A DNA stretch of 64,000 nt from the NCBI RefSeq assembly GCF_001952935.1, contig NZ_CP018319.1:4546001-4610000 (forward strand), written 5' to 3'. Origin of the DNA: Pseudomonas frederiksbergensis. Lineage in GTDB: Bacteria > Pseudomonadota > Gammaproteobacteria > Pseudomonadales > Pseudomonadaceae. The translations under genes were made by a program, and so were the position numbers. This document shows, one piece after another, positions 716 through 48,995 of this stretch (the stretch's first letter is position 1; every line of letters begins with the position of its first letter). The notes beneath the pieces were generated by a model. That model was not told the origin of the DNA, ran no database searches, and saw nothing but the letters and a program-made list of their open reading frames with translations.

Positions 716-724
716 AGATCTACG

Positions 725-812
725 GTGGGAGCGGGCTTGCTCGCGAAGGGGCCGTCACATTCAACATCAATGGTGACTGACACTCCGCTTTCGCGAGCAA
801 GCCCGCTCCCAC
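725..812. repeat. REP doublet (inverted pair of 23-24 bp REP units)
   Basis: GTGGGAGCGGGCTTGCTCGC at 725 and its reverse complement ending at 812 face each other across about 40 bp, the arrangement of fluorescens-type REP elements. Each unit also folds on itself (GCGGGCTTGCTCGC). Lies directly downstream of queF. Confidence 0.85.
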
Positions 813-841
813 AAGGGATTGCATTACAAATTCCGGATATG

Positions 842-29354: not shown

Positions 29355-29391
29355 GTGGGTTCTCAAGAATTCTCGGGTGTACATAAAACCT

Positions 29392-29478
29392 GTGGGGGCG
29401 AGCCTGCTCGCGATGGCGGCGGCACATCTTGTATCTATATGACAGAAAGACCGCTATCGCGAGCAGGCTCACTCCCAC
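29392..29478. repeat. REP doublet
   Basis: GTGGGGGCGAGCCTGCTCGC at 29392 and the inverted copy GCGAGCAGGCTCACTCCCAC ending at 29478, about 41 bp apart. Same arrangement as at 725 and 37563. Confidence 0.85.
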
Positions 29479-29539
29479 ATTTAATTTGTGTGGAGTTTAA
29501 AGGGCGCAGCTGCTGCTTTGAGATTTATCTGCGGCCAAT

Positions 29540-37561: not shown

Positions 37562-37562
37562 T

Positions 37563-37649
37563 GTAGGAGTGAGCCTGCTCGCGATAGCGTTGTGTCAGCC
37601 AACAGTGATGCTGCTGATGCACCGCTATCGCGAGCAGGCTCACTCCTAC
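37563..37649. repeat. REP doublet
   Basis: GTAGGAGTGAGCCTGCTCGC and the inverted copy GCGAGCAGGCTCACTCCTAC with about 33 bp between; 27 bp arms match perfectly. Confidence 0.88.
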
Positions 37650-37727
37650 AGGGGAATCTGCGATGTTCTGCAGATTCCTCGCGCAATCCAGTAAACTGCC
37701 GCACGTTTTTCGTTGAGTGTGTTTTTC

Positions 37728-42643: not shown

Positions 42644-43534
42644 TTAGCCGAGAGTCCCTGGCAGATCGATTTGTGCATCCAGCAAGGCCATGAAGGCTCG
42701 CGCCGCATTCGATAGTGTCCTTTCTGTGTGCAGGATATAGCCTAGCTGGCGAGTGAGTTGTATGCCTGGTAAAGGTATTCGCGCCACTTGATCGTCAAGC
42801 ATAGTGCGAGGCAACACGCTCCAGGCCAGGCCGATCGAGACCATCATCTTGATGGTTTCCAGATAATTCGTGCTCATGGCAATGTTCGGCGTCAGGCCTT
42901 GAGCTTCGAACAGGCGCCGGACGATGTGGTGAGTAAAGGTGTTGCCGCCGGGGAAAACCGCCGGGTGCAGGGCAATGTCCGCCAGGCTGACCGGGCCGTG
43001 GCTGATCAGCGAGTGCTCCGGGGCGACCACGAAGTCCAGCGGGTCGTCCCACACCGGCGTGGCCTTGACCAGTGCGTGGGGCTCCGGCGCCAGGGTGATG
43101 ACCGCCAGTTCGGCGCGGCCATGGAGGATTTCTTCGTAGGCCACTTCCGAATCAAGGAACTGAATATCCAGCGCCACTTGCGGGTAACGTCGGGTGAACT
43201 CCCTTAGCAAGGGGGGCAAACGGTGCAGGCCGATGTGGTGGCTGGTGGCCAGGGTCAGGCGGCCAGTCACTTCGCCGGTCAAGTTGGTCAGCGCGCGGCG
43301 GGTGTCGTCCAGCACATTCAGGATCTGATAGGCCCGCGGCAGCAAGGCGCGTCCGGCCTCAGTCAGGCTGACTTCACGGCCCAGGCGATCGAACAGGCGC
43401 ACCTTCAATTGCTGCTCCAGCCCGGCAATGCGCTTGCTGATGGCCGGTTGCGTCAGGTGCAGCCGTTCACCAGCGCCGGAGAAACTACCGGTCTCGGCAA
43501 TCGCGATAAAAGCATTGAGGTTGGCGAGGTCCAT
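42644..43534 (-). CDS. LysR-family regulator divergent from leuC
   Basis: A 296-residue regulator: winged HTH in residues 1-60 (LNAFIAIAETGSFSGAGERL, HLTQPAISKRIAGLEQQLKV, RLFDRLGREVSLTEAGRALL) and a C-terminal effector domain of the periplasmic-binding type. It is transcribed away from leuC with about 146 bp between starts, the classical arrangement for a regulator of its divergent neighbour; orthologues hold the same position in other Pseudomonas. The effector may be a leucine-pathway intermediate such as isopropylmalate, as for LeuO-like or other LysR proteins, but this is inference. Confidence 0.86.
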   Translation of the reverse strand: MDLANLNAFIAIAETGSFSGAGERLHLTQPAISKRIAGLEQQLKVRLFDRLGREVSLTEAGRALLPRAYQILNVLDDTRRALTNLTGEVTGRLTLATSHHIGLHRLPPLLREFTRRYPQVALDIQFLDSEVAYEEILHGRAELAVITLAPEPHALVKATPVWDDPLDFVVAPEHSLISHGPVSLADIALHPAVFPGGNTFTHHIVRRLFEAQGLTPNIAMSTNYLETIKMMVSIGLAWSVLPRTMLDDQVARIPLPGIQLTRQLGYILHTERTLSNAARAFMALLDAQIDLPGTLG

Positions 43535-43547
43535 TGCAGTATTCCAA

Positions 43548-43559
43548 TTGGTTATCCAA
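43548..43559. promoter_or_regulatory. Candidate LysR operator in the lysR-leuC gap
   Basis: TTGG-TTAT-CCAA inverted repeat 14 bp before the lysR start; AT-rich DNA with T-N11-A-like elements (ATTTGAGTTATTTAATGTAA) follows towards leuC. Confidence 0.4.
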
Positions 43560-43680
43560 AGCATGAAAAATATGAATTTGAGTTATTTAATGTAACCCCC
43601 TAGGATCGACCTCACAAGCCAAGGGGTTATTGAACTGTTCAAAACCCAAGGCATAGAAATACGCTGATGAGGACCGTCTG

Positions 43681-45099
43681 ATGGCCGGCAAAACGCTTTA
43701 CGACAAGCTTTGGGATTCCCATGAAGTGAAACGGCGCGACGATGGGTCGTCGCTGATCTATATCGACCGCCACATCATCCATGAAGTGACTTCGCCCCAA
43801 GCTTTCGAAGGCCTGCGTCTGGCCGGGCGCAAGCCTTGGCGCGTCGACTCGATCATCGCGACCCCGGACCACAACGTACCGACCACCCCGGATCGCAAGG
43901 GCGGCATCGAAGCGATTACCGACCAGGTCTCGCGTTTGCAGGTTCAGACCCTCGATGACTACTGCGACGAATATGGCATCACCGAATTCAAGATGAATGA
44001 CGTGCGTCAGGGCATCGTTCACGTGATCGGTCCGGAGCAGGGCGCCACCTTGCCGGGCATGACCGTGGTCTGCGGCGACTCGCACACCTCGACCCACGGC
44101 GCGTTTGGCGCATTGGCCCACGGCATTGGCACTTCCGAAGTCGAGCACGTGTTCGCCACGCAATGCCTGGTGGCCAAGAAGATGAAAAACATGCTGGTGT
44201 CGGTCGAAGGCAAATTGCCGTTCGGCGTGACCGCCAAGGACATCGTCCTCGCCGTCATCGGCAAGATCGGCACTGCCGGCGGTAACGGCCACGCCATCGA
44301 GTTCGCCGGCAGCGCTATTCGCGATTTGTCCGTCGAAGGCCGCATGACCATCTGCAACATGTCCATCGAAGCCGGCGCTCGTGTTGGCCTGGTGGCTGCC
44401 GACGAAAAAACCGTGGCTTACGTCAAGGGTCGTCCATTTGCCCCGAAAGGCGCGGAATGGGACATGGCGGTCGAAGCCTGGAAAGACCTGGTGTCCGACG
44501 CCGATGCCGTGTTCGACACCGTCGTCGAGCTCGACGCTACTCAGATCAAGCCGCAAGTCAGCTGGGGTACTTCGCCCGAGATGGTCCTGGCGGTTGATCA
44601 GAACGTGCCGGACCCGGCGAAGGAAATGGACCTGGTCAAGCGCGGCTCCATCGAGCGCGCCTTGAAATACATGGGTTTGAGCGCCAATCAGGCGATCACC
44701 GACATTCAACTGGACCGCGTGTTCATTGGTTCCTGCACCAACTCGCGGATCGAAGACTTGCGCGCTGCGGCGGTGATCGCCAAGGGCCGTAAAGTCGCTT
44801 CGACCATCAAGCAAGCCATCGTGGTGCCGGGCTCGGGCCTGGTGAAGGCGCAAGCCGAGGCCGAAGGCCTGGACAAGATTTTCCTCGAAGCCGGTTTCGA
44901 GTGGCGTGAACCGGGTTGCTCGATGTGCCTGGCGATGAACCCGGACCGCTTGGAGTCGGGCGAGCATTGCGCCTCGACCTCCAACCGCAACTTCGAAGGG
45001 CGTCAGGGCGCCGGTGGCCGTACGCACCTGGTCAGCCCGGCCATGGCCGCGGCGGCTGCCGTCCACGGTCGTTTCATCGACGTTCGCGAACTGATCTGA
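43681..45099 (+). CDS. leuC: 3-isopropylmalate dehydratase large subunit
   Basis: A 472-residue subunit of isopropylmalate isomerase, which converts 2- to 3-isopropylmalate in leucine synthesis. It carries the 4Fe-4S cluster: Cys in [15 protein letters not shown] and the CSMC pair in [13 protein letters not shown]-terminus [13 protein letters not shown], and [19 protein letters not shown] are characteristic. Ten bp separate it from leuD, and both are translated from one mRNA. GAGGACCG precedes the ATG. Confidence 0.97.
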
Positions 45100-45109
45100 G
45101 GAACCGCAC

Positions 45110-45754
45110 ATGAGAGCTTTTACCCAACACACCGGTTTGGTCGCGCCATTGGACCGTGCCAACGTCGACACCGACCAGATCATTCCGAAGCAGTTCTTGA
45201 AGTCGATCAAGCGCACCGGTTTTGGTCCGAACCTGTTCGACGAATGGCGCTACCTGGACGTGGGCTATGCCTACCAGGACAACTCCAAGCGTCCGCTGAA
45301 CAAGGACTTCGTGCTCAACGCCGAGCGTTATCAAGGCGCCAGCGTGCTGCTGGCCCGCGAAAACTTCGGTTGCGGCTCCAGCCGTGAACACGCGCCGTGG
45401 GCGCTGGAAGAGTACGGTTTTCGCAGCATCATTGCGCCAAGCTACGCCGACATCTTCTACAACAACAGCTTCAAGAACGGCTTGTTGCCGATCATTTTGA
45501 CCGACGCTGAAGTGGATGAGTTGTTCCAGCAAGTCGAGGCCAATCCGGGTTACGAGTTGACGGTCGACCTGCAAGCCCAGACCGTGACCCGTCCGGATGG
45601 CAAGGTCTACAAATTCGAATTGGACGAATTCCGTAAACACTGCCTGGTGAATGGCCTCGACGATATCGGTCTGACATTGATGGATCACGAAGCGATTGCG
45701 GCGTTTGAAGCCAAACACCGTGCGAGCCAGCCGTGGTTGTTTCGCGACGTTTGA
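45110..45754 (+). CDS. leuD: 3-isopropylmalate dehydratase small subunit
   Basis: A 214-residue swivelling domain subunit that completes the isomerase active site with LeuC. Seen: [40 protein letters not shown] (substrate-binding loop) and [20 protein letters not shown] lies before the ATG. Directly follows leuC; a REP pair separates it from the methyltransferase gene. Confidence 0.97.
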
Positions 45755-45797
45755 TTCTCGGTAGGTAGTGCCGGCCTCATCGTCGGAACGCCGCCCG

Positions 45798-45867
45798 GAG
45801 CAGGCTCGCTCCCACAGTGGATTTGCGGCGTACACAAAACCCCTGTGGGAGCGAGCCTGCTCGCGAT
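45798..45867. repeat. REP pair in inverted orientation
   Basis: GAGCAGGCTCGCTCCCAC (45798-45815) and GTGGGAGCGAGCCTGCTCGC (45845 on), tail-to-tail, the opposite order to the doublets at 725, 29392 and 37563. Confidence 0.8.
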
Positions 45868-45905: not shown

Positions 45906-46670
45906 ATGACCAGCACCGCCCACAGCCAAGTCGTACAAAAGCAATTCGGCGAACAAGCCTCGGCCTACCTGAGCAGCGCCGTACATGCTCAAGGCACCGA
46001 ATTTGCGTTGCTACAGGCTGAACTGGCAGGGCAGGGCGATGCCCGAGTGCTGGACCTGGGCTGCGGCGCCGGTCACGTGAGTTTTCACGTGGCGTCGCTG
46101 GTCAAGGAAGTGGTGGCCTACGATTTGTCGCAGCAGATGCTCGACGTGGTGGCCGGTGCTGCCGTCGATCGCGGCCTGACCAACGTGTCCACCGTGCTGG
46201 GCGCCGCCGAGCACTTGCCATTCGCCGATGGCGAATTCGATTTCGTCTTCAGCCGTTATTCGGCGCACCATTGGAGCGATCTCGGCCTGGCCCTGCGAGA
46301 GGTTCGCCGGGTGCTGAAGCCGGGCGGCGTGGCGGCGTTCATCGACGTGTTGTCACCGGGCAGTCCGCTGTTCGACACTTACCTGCAAAGCGTCGAAGTG
46401 CTGCGCGACACCAGCCATGTGCGCGATTATTCCGCCGGCGAGTGGTTGCGGCAGGTCAGTGAAGCGGGGTTGCATACCCGCAGCACCACCCGTCAACGGT
46501 TGCGTCTGGAGTACACCTCCTGGGTCGAGCGCATGCGCACCCCAGAAGTGATGCGCGCGGCAATCCTCGAGCTGCAGCAATCGATGGGCAATGAAGTACG
46601 CGAATATTTCGAGATCGAGGCCGATGGCTCGTTCAGTACCGATGTGTTGGTACTGATGGCTGAAAGATAA
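45906..46670 (+). CDS. Class I SAM-dependent methyltransferase inside the leu locus
   Basis: A 254-residue Rossmann methyltransferase of the UbiE/Methyltransf_11 type. Motif I is ARVLDLGCGAGHVSFHVA, motif II VVAYDLSQQMLDVV, then AAEHLPFADGEFDFVFSRYS (post-I/II) and ALREVRRVLKPGGVAAFIDV. Substrate unknown. It sits between leuD and leuB on the same strand, a position kept in P. aeruginosa, so it is a stable member of the cluster although no methylation is needed in leucine synthesis. Confidence 0.85.
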   Translation: MTSTAHSQVVQKQFGEQASAYLSSAVHAQGTEFALLQAELAGQGDARVLDLGCGAGHVSFHVASLVKEVVAYDLSQQMLDVVAGAAVDRGLTNVSTVLGAAEHLPFADGEFDFVFSRYSAHHWSDLGLALREVRRVLKPGGVAAFIDVLSPGSPLFDTYLQSVEVLRDTSHVRDYSAGEWLRQVSEAGLHTRSTTRQRLRLEYTSWVERMRTPEVMRAAILELQQSMGNEVREYFEIEADGSFSTDVLVLMAER

Positions 46671-46731: not shown

Positions 46732-47814
<1,083 letters not shown>

Positions 47815-47882: not shown

Positions 47883-48995
47883 ATGAAACGTGTAGGTCTG
47901 ATCGGTTGGCGCGGTATGGTCGGTTCCGTGCTCATGCAGCGGATGCTGGAAGAGCAGGATTTCGATCTTATCGAGCCGGTGTTTTTCACCACTTCCAATG
48001 TCGGTGGCCAAGGCCCGTCCGTGGGTAAGGATATTGCTCCGCTCAAGGACGCTTACAGCATTGAAGAGCTGAAAACCCTCGACGTGATTCTGACCTGCCA
48101 GGGTGGCGACTACACCAGTGAAGTGTTCCCGAAGCTGCGCGAAGCCGGCTGGCAGGGTTACTGGATCGACGCCGCTTCCAGCCTGCGCATGCAGGATGAC
48201 GCGGTAATCGTGCTGGACCCGGTTAACCGCAAGGTCATCGACCAGCAGCTCGACGCGGGCACCAAGAACTACATCGGCGGCAACTGCACCGTCAGCCTGA
48301 TGCTGATGGGCCTGGGTGGCCTGTTCGAGGCGGGTCTGGTCGAGTGGATGAGCGCCATGACTTATCAGGCCGCCTCCGGTGGCGGCGCGCAGCACATGCG
48401 TGAACTGATCAAGCAAATGGGTGTGACCCACGCCGCTGTCGCCGATCAACTGGCCGACCCGGCCAGCGCGATCCTCGACATCGACCGCCGTGTTGCCGAA
48501 GCCATGCGCAGCGACGCGTACCCGACCGAGAACTTCGGCGTACCGCTGGCCGGCAGCCTGATCCCGTGGATCGACAAGGAACTGCCGAACGGTCAGAGCC
48601 GCGAAGAGTGGAAGGCCCAGGCCGAGACCAACAAGATCCTCGGTCGCTTCAAGAGCCCGATCCCGGTGGACGGCATCTGCGTGCGTATCGGCGCCATGCG
48701 CTGCCACAGCCAGGCGCTGACCATCAAGCTGAACAAAGATGTGCCGATCGCTGACATCGAAGGGTTGATCAGCCAGCACAACCCTTGGGTCAAACTGGTG
48801 CCGAACAACCGCGAAATCAGCATGCAGGAGCTGAGCCCTACAAAGGTCACCGGTACCCTGAACGTGCCGGTTGGCCGTCTGCGCAAGCTGAACATGGGCA
48901 CGCAGTACGTCGGCGCGTTCACCGTCGGCGACCAACTGCTGTGGGGCGCGGCCGAACCGCTGCGTCGCATGCTGCGGATCCTGCTTGAGCGTTGA
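47883..48995 (+). CDS. asd: Aspartate-semialdehyde dehydrogenase
   Basis: A 370-residue NADPH enzyme that reduces aspartyl phosphate to the semialdehyde, feeding Lys/DAP, Met and Thr synthesis. N-terminal nucleotide site [20 protein letters not shown]; active-site Cys135 in [14 protein letters not shown]; general base His in the [12 protein letters not shown] to [11 protein letters not shown] region. Type matches the Gram-negative long form. GAAGGTG precedes the ATG; it is followed by a terminator and then by a paralogue without the catalytic Cys. Confidence 0.96.

Follow-up and report, generated by a model that had tools for sequence, protein, structure and literature searches.

In Pseudomonas and related genera, an accessory, single-copy methyltransferase gene adjoins leuB within the leucine operon of every carrier found, and this position lock suggests a real tie of the enzyme to leucine synthesis. 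By analogy with yeast Tmt1, we tentatively judge its most likely activity to be carboxyl methylation of a dicarboxylate of the leucine step or of an inhibitor of that step. The window, a stretch of 64,000 nucleotides from Pseudomonas frederiksbergensis, contains the gene as a 254-residue open reading frame with an ATG start (45906–46670, +), located 151 nt downstream of leuD and 61 nt upstream of leuB. The gene order is leuC-leuD-methyltransferase-leuB-asd, with every gene on the plus strand. NCBIfam models placed all four neighbours above their cut-offs: leuC, the 3-isopropylmalate dehydratase large subunit (43681–45099, +; TIGR00170, 768.6 bits, cut-off 560); leuD, the small subunit (45110–45754, +; TIGR00171, 298.8 bits, cut-off 116); leuB, 3-isopropylmalate dehydrogenase (46732–47814, +; TIGR00169, 535.2 bits, cut-off 353); and, further downstream, asd, aspartate-semialdehyde dehydrogenase (47883–48995, +; TIGR01745, 654.2 bits, cut-off 403). 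The open reading frame, domain matches and NCBIfam neighbours confirmed the first-pass annotation of a UbiE-like methyltransferase between leuD and leuB, with "UbiE-like" applying at superfamily level only, and Pfam matches supported its description of LeuC and LeuD as aconitase-type. The locus names used for the methyltransferase in Pseudomonas are, we assume, PA3119 and PP1987.

A repeat scan located an inverted repeat with 28-nt arms and a 9-nt spacer (45798–45862) in the gap between leuD and the methyltransferase gene, which we take to be REP-type. Four inverted pairs of this repeat occur in the window (724–813, 29391–29479, 37562–37650 and 45794–45866), and 8 matches with at most 3 mismatches were counted there, against a mean of 0.00 in 100 shuffles. 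Between 43400 and 48000, the promoter scan returned no site (shuffles, mean 1.5) and terminator-like sites were at chance level (4 versus a shuffle mean of 4.0). A LysR-type regulator (42644–43564, −) diverges from leuC and is a candidate regulator of the operon; a LysR-like open reading frame also adjoins leuC in loci L218–L222.

The methyltransferase was found in 107 of 149 Pseudomonas genomes, with one match each (E 1e-40), and leuB in all 149. In each of the 107 carriers the gene immediately precedes leuB on the same contig and strand, at a distance of 40–221 nt (median 54), and leuD is on the other side in all 47 whose locus was fetched. Among the best 80 of 411 named matches, all from Pseudomonas and several labelled P. 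fluorescens, leuD flanks the gene in 79 loci and the last is cut off by the contig end. Three further Pseudomonas genomes and four genomes of two sister genera (7/7 Pseudomonadaceae carriers) show the same slot. With 13 more from a second family of the same order, the leu-linked lineage comprises 127 carriers (107 + 3 + 4 + 13), all with leuB adjacent, and leuD is on the other side in all 67 with a fetched locus (47 + 7 + 13). Slot and strand are thus the same in every examined carrier of the lineage, which places the gene in the leucine operon, and the first-pass view of a non-pathway methyltransferase kept there holds up. Searches in the 127 carriers found no second copy or other location. 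Two contigs of the P. fluorescens isolate PS662 (L103 and L104) each bear a leu operon with the methyltransferase and have equal match statistics, reflecting either a duplicated region or an assembly artefact.

Because 42 of the 149 Pseudomonas genomes do without the gene, it is not needed for leucine synthesis. In all 42, leuD is followed directly by leuB, 29–228 nt away, and no trace of the methyltransferase was detected at E 1e-3 within their leu stretch. We also considered a slot open to any gene and rejected this idea, the gaps of non-carriers in Pseudomonas (29–228 nt, 42/42) and in the second family (12–301 nt, 20/20) being too short for a gene of ordinary size. Wider samples gave 3 carriers in 369 genomes of the class, 35 in 398 of the phylum and 4 in 145 of the order. 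These counts depend on the E-value limits (1e-40 for the genus, 1e-30 for the class, 1e-50 for the profile), with up to 18 candidates scored per genome in the genus, 7 in the class, 6 in the phylum, and 26 and 22 in two families; genomes counted as non-carriers may hold remoter relatives elsewhere.

In the second family, 13 of 101 genomes carry the methyltransferase, in all 13 between leuD and leuB. In all 13 carriers an in-frame start codon falls within leuD, 8 nt from its end, as in translational coupling, and the distance from the methyltransferase stop to the leuB start is 9 nt in nine of them (17, 30, 30 and 144 nt in the others). Among the 88 non-carriers of this family, 20 were fetched, and all 20 have leuD and leuB adjacent. 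The window copy is more loosely placed than these overlapping genes, with 151 nt and a REP pair separating it from leuD. The overlap makes co-transcription with the leu genes likely in the second family.

Comparison with domain models and relatives indicates that the window protein belongs, with Escherichia coli YafE, to the YafE/YcgJ family of class I SAM-dependent methyltransferases, a family without characterised function. Two Pfam domains scored above their cut-offs, Methyltransf_11 with 93.6 bits (against 21.2) and Ubie_methyltran with 66.3 bits (against 20.1). The NCBIfam scan matched 46 families, and each of the 25 listed, UbiE and BioC included, stayed below its cut-off; "UbiE-like" is therefore true at superfamily level only. 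Membership in UbiE/MenG was rejected at 71.2 bits against 158 (TIGR01934), as was membership in BioC, at 73.6 against 342 and 70.6 against 185 bits, below the equivalog cut-offs. The full-length form of E. coli YafE (locus L120) aligns over 254 residues with 56% identity and has the signature residues in common with the window protein; it is likewise uncharacterised, and its gene sits between yafD and mltD, unlike the leu-operon copy. The best solved relatives are Bacillus subtilis YcgJ (PDB 1xxl, 2glu; profile E 3.8e-64) and BH2331 (1vl5; 9.4e-53), which have R-x-x-AHH and RDxSHxR motifs in common with the window protein and whose PDB entries name no function.

Conserved residues were read from an alignment of 123 rows (69 leu-operon, 40 regulator-linked and 14 other), from which the residue definition of the family used in this analysis was also drawn. 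That definition comprises a full-length alignment with YafE and the residues R117, S119–W123, L166–D168, H171, R173, W206 and R209, all of which the window protein has, together with the segment LDLGCGAGH at residues 49–57, which we take to be SAM motif I. Besides the SAM motifs, at least 95% of the 123 rows keep H27, R117, S119–W123 (SAHHW), D157 and E164, as well as L166–D168, H171, R173, W206 and R209. Eight positions are leu-specific (E32, F33, A143, Q197, R217, G228, T245 and V249), and the signature residues are identical in copies outside leu operons. The signature is rich in Arg and His (H27, R117, H121, H122, R167, H171, R173 and R209) and would fit an anionic substrate. An AlphaFold model built from 16 near-identical rows had a mean pLDDT of 39.2 and gives no placement of these Arg/His residues in the pocket.

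A common superfamily and the adjacent aconitase-type enzymes would speak for a Tam, the trans-aconitate 2-methyltransferase, that had moved into the leu operon, and the first-pass annotation had drawn a parallel with this enzyme. A Tam is encoded elsewhere in the genome (C1:3934136–3934903) and scores 365 bits against the NF002463 cut-off of 297, whereas the 14 matches to this model at E 0.001 in the genome do not include the protein from the leu operon. The two proteins have the SAM-binding fold superfamily in common, and BLASTP aligned them with 23% identity over 155 residues (E 0.005). On model and alignment scores, Tam membership is refuted, kinship to Tam is not supported, and we give a relocated Tam next to no chance. 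Among the 149 Pseudomonas genomes, 86 have both genes, 21 only the leu methyltransferase, 20 only Tam and 22 neither. The positive association (Fisher p 2e-4) is uncorrected for kinship of the genomes; the idea that the two genes are alternatives was rejected, given the 86 genomes with both. A second Tam-like gene (C1:3889532–3890307, −; locus L183) aligns with the Tam model in two pieces that overlap, which would suit a frameshifted copy. A nearby open reading frame, named by eye, is presumably pcaD-like.

A further reading has the methyltransferase act on RNA, nucleotides or quinones. The Ubie_methyltran match speaks for it, as does the yafE knock-out of E. coli, whose fall in m6A-peak count was among the two largest in the consulted portions of a 2025 study (PMC12096079). 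According to the same portions, the knock-out grows normally, and YafE purified from MG1655 did not methylate RNA, adenosine, AMP or ATP and did not bind SAM by fluorescence (PMC12096079). The protein tested was a truncated one. The MG1655 gene encodes 207 residues and starts just after yafD, whereas that of strain 2021CK-01784 encodes 256; by comparison, MG1655 lacks about 220 bp. Residues 1–51 are gone and the next few mismatch (L181 2427–3050 versus L120 4869–5639), so that SAM motif I (49–57) is destroyed. The two pieces of the alignment share 26 bp in K-12, a pattern that a deletion between direct repeats would leave. Because the cloned K-12 gene lost its start and SAM motif I, the negative test says little about the intact enzyme. 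With no UbiE model reaching its cut-off among the NCBIfam families listed, and with the inactivity of purified YafE, truncated as it was, we nevertheless consider action on RNA, nucleotides or quinones very unlikely.

Of 5426 E. coli genomes, 5374 match the yafE region. Coverage, open frames aside, was compared across a spread of 15 records: 10 were gap-free, 4 had the K-12-like two-piece form and 1 was partial. By this measure the long form is common in E. coli. In another enterobacterial yafE (L216 / L223 6004–6630, −) the match begins only at profile position 43, and this is perhaps another N-terminally shortened copy.

Outside the leu-linked lineage the gene has other partners. Of the 35 carrier genomes in the phylum sample, 24 are not leu-linked, and their contexts were read by tblastn, open-reading-frame calls in GC-rich DNA being unreliable. 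A divergent XRE-type regulator stands beside the gene in 11 of these 24 loci, yafD lies upstream in 8, all of one enterobacterial family, and 5 have neither. In one further family the gene occurs in 65 of 120 genomes, and the divergent regulator was present in 33 of 33 examined (30 returned loci plus G749, G817 and G821, of the 65 positive genomes); among non-leu loci of the class sample it was present in 1 of 2. Altogether, the regulator accompanies the gene in 40 of 54 non-leu genomes examined, 33 of the 40 coming from one family. Five of five regulators scanned against Pfam contain PF17765, the MmyB-like ligand-binding domain, together with HTH_31. The methyltransferase and the MmyB-like regulator thus form a recurrent two-gene unit in the phylum (divergent pairs in L204–L206, L209–L215, L225–L231, L237, L164 and L250–L277). 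MltR/MmyB-like (MLTR-type) regulators, the partners of many non-leu copies, were not found beside leu-operon copies. In the window, no divergent PF17765 regulator is next to the gene, which is thus not an MLTR-regulated pair, and a search of the window genome with one such query returned nothing at E 1e-3.

This distribution bears most directly on the nearest competitor of the leucine-step reading, a general detoxification enzyme parked in the leu operon that methylates an exogenous or otherwise unrelated carboxylic acid. Other bacteria may sense that acid via the MLTR regulator, and the leu operon would merely supply expression, the site persisting by in-place recombination of alleles. The pairing with a divergent regulator agrees with such a role, both in the phylum sample (11/24) and in the 40 of 54 non-leu genomes (33 of the 54 being from one family), as do the conserved residues, alike in all contexts, and a patchy presence of the kind usual for accessory functions. 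A fatty-acid-like ligand occupies the solved MltR, and MltR-like regulators neighbour antibiotic and dehydrogenase genes; the authors of the structure link the regulator family to antibiotic and fatty-acid metabolism, according to the available parts of the paper, where the word "methyltransferase" is absent from the main text (PMC3406030). Left unexplained are the searches of 127 carriers that show no second copy or other location, and the 8-nt overlap with leuD in 13/13 second-family carriers. We regard detoxification of an unrelated acid as a real possibility, almost as likely as action at the leucine step.

The history of the gene was followed in trees built from 79 of the 123 rows kept after thinning and, for the more careful analysis, from 36 chosen rows. 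In the 79-row tree (quick method), a branch with SH-aLRT 98 separates the 31 leu-operon rows from the rest, and in the careful 36-row tree the leu-operon side is supported at 99/99. Since the leu-operon copies fall on one side of a branch, a single entry into the leuD–leuB slot is the simplest reading of the trees. A LeuC+LeuD+LeuB tree was built by the quick method from 42 non-carriers, 32 chosen carriers and 2 outgroup rows. It requires at least 13 changes in presence, of which well-supported branches force 8, with gain and loss not separable.

Sequence identities point to some mobility of alleles within the slot. Within one genus of the second family, all 28 pairs show lower identity for the methyltransferase (78–96%) than for LeuB (94–98%). 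Between that genus and another, the methyltransferase has the higher identity in 20 of 32 pairs (74–87% versus 79–84% for LeuB); 4 of the 12 exceptions involve row L241, which instead resembles a third genus (84% versus 79% for LeuB). For the cross-genus pair L222/L239, DNA identity in 150-nt windows is 76–88% in the methyltransferase, 69–70% in the last part of leuD, 64–67% at the leuB start and 77–85% further inside leuB; the contrast is less sharp in a second cross-genus pair (L241/L245). Our preferred but not proven reading is that alleles were exchanged between genera without the neighbouring genes. Such exchange, sparing the flanks, would also suit the detoxification of an unrelated acid.

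Median methyltransferase/LeuB distance ratios are 2.1–3.4 within Pseudomonadaceae, 1.0–1.7 between families and 1.1 within the second family. The between-family ratios suggested gene transfer between Pseudomonadaceae and the second family, which we do not claim because a ratio of 1.1 occurs inside the second family as well and a single Pseudomonadaceae clade was not rejected by the AU test (p 0.35). In 11 comparisons, with dS near saturation in some, NG86 dN/dS was 0.019–0.118 for the methyltransferase, 0.036–0.098 for leuD and 0.038–0.123 for leuB. Purifying selection on the methyltransferase is strong, like that on leuD and leuB.

Carboxyl methylation at the leucine step, the reading we favour, draws on the position lock, the leuD overlap, the clade of leu copies, dN/dS, the conserved residues, the MLTR pairing and the Tmt1 precedent. 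The methyltransferase would be made together with LeuC, LeuD and LeuB and would act on something that appears at that step, probably by O-methylation of one carboxylate of a branched dicarboxylate. Isopropylmaleate or isopropylmalate that leaks from LeuCD would be a candidate substrate, as would an analogue inhibitory to LeuCD or LeuB; once converted to the half-ester, the compound would cease to bind LeuCD/LeuB, or would be exported. A damage-control role, as the first-pass annotation had suggested, is possible. Elsewhere the same type of enzyme, often encoded next to a ligand-sensing MLTR regulator, may be switched on when needed, and in Pseudomonas the distribution suggests that leu-operon control would replace the MLTR sensor. 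The substrate may not be specific to leucine synthesis. What speaks most strongly against a leucine-specific role is the unchanged signature of the non-leu copies; because these relatives often pair with their own regulator or adjoin yafD, a leucine-specific substrate becomes less convincing.

Yeast Tmt1 methylates 3-isopropylmalate and isopropylmaleate, as stated in the parts available of three papers (PMC3197675, PMC6320622, PMC10952241), so that carboxyl methylation at a leucine-pathway step is real chemistry in another organism; in the accessible text of the 2019 paper, the purpose of this methylation in yeast is called unresolved (PMC6320622). Tmt1 (trans-aconitate 3-methyltransferase, PDB 3G5T) is likened here by its reaction. 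It belongs to a different subfamily, and 3G5T was absent from the 60 entries listed out of 78 solved relatives of the window protein. The yeast case also raises the prospect of a signal maker that releases 3-isopropylmalate methyl ester to report leucine starvation, this ester being an invasive-growth signal in yeast according to excerpts of PMC4684349 and the title of Dumlao et al. Nothing linked to the bacterial gene points to release or reception of such a signal, and the one-query search found no MLTR regulator in the window genome; we hold signalling to be unlikely, and less likely than detoxification.

The fold and the family are already known. Our literature search found no paper on the methyltransferase in the leu operon, and in the portions of the literature covered, including those of the YafE paper (PMC12096079), it found neither the leu-operon lock, nor the MLTR pairing, nor the argument from the K-12 truncation. 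The published biochemical test of YafE concerned the product of a gene without its SAM-binding start. The present comparison provides two independent handles on the family: one lineage ties it to the leu operon, and many others encode it next to a ligand-binding regulator, so that the regulator ligand and the enzyme substrate can be sought together. More broadly, and with clearly less confidence than for the leucine step itself, YafE/YcgJ proteins might be widespread carboxyl methyltransferases for branched or alkyl dicarboxylates, MLTR-controlled in many hosts and hard-wired into the leu operon in Pseudomonas and relatives, where they would disarm or export isopropylmalate-type compounds as a bacterial counterpart of Tmt1 from a different subfamily; we rate this full picture as doubtful. 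If the substrate is a leucine intermediate or an inhibitor of LeuCD, the enzyme would be a bacterial example of the action of yeast Tmt1, and the gene, if this is true, would be an optional, protective gene within an operon for core biosynthesis.
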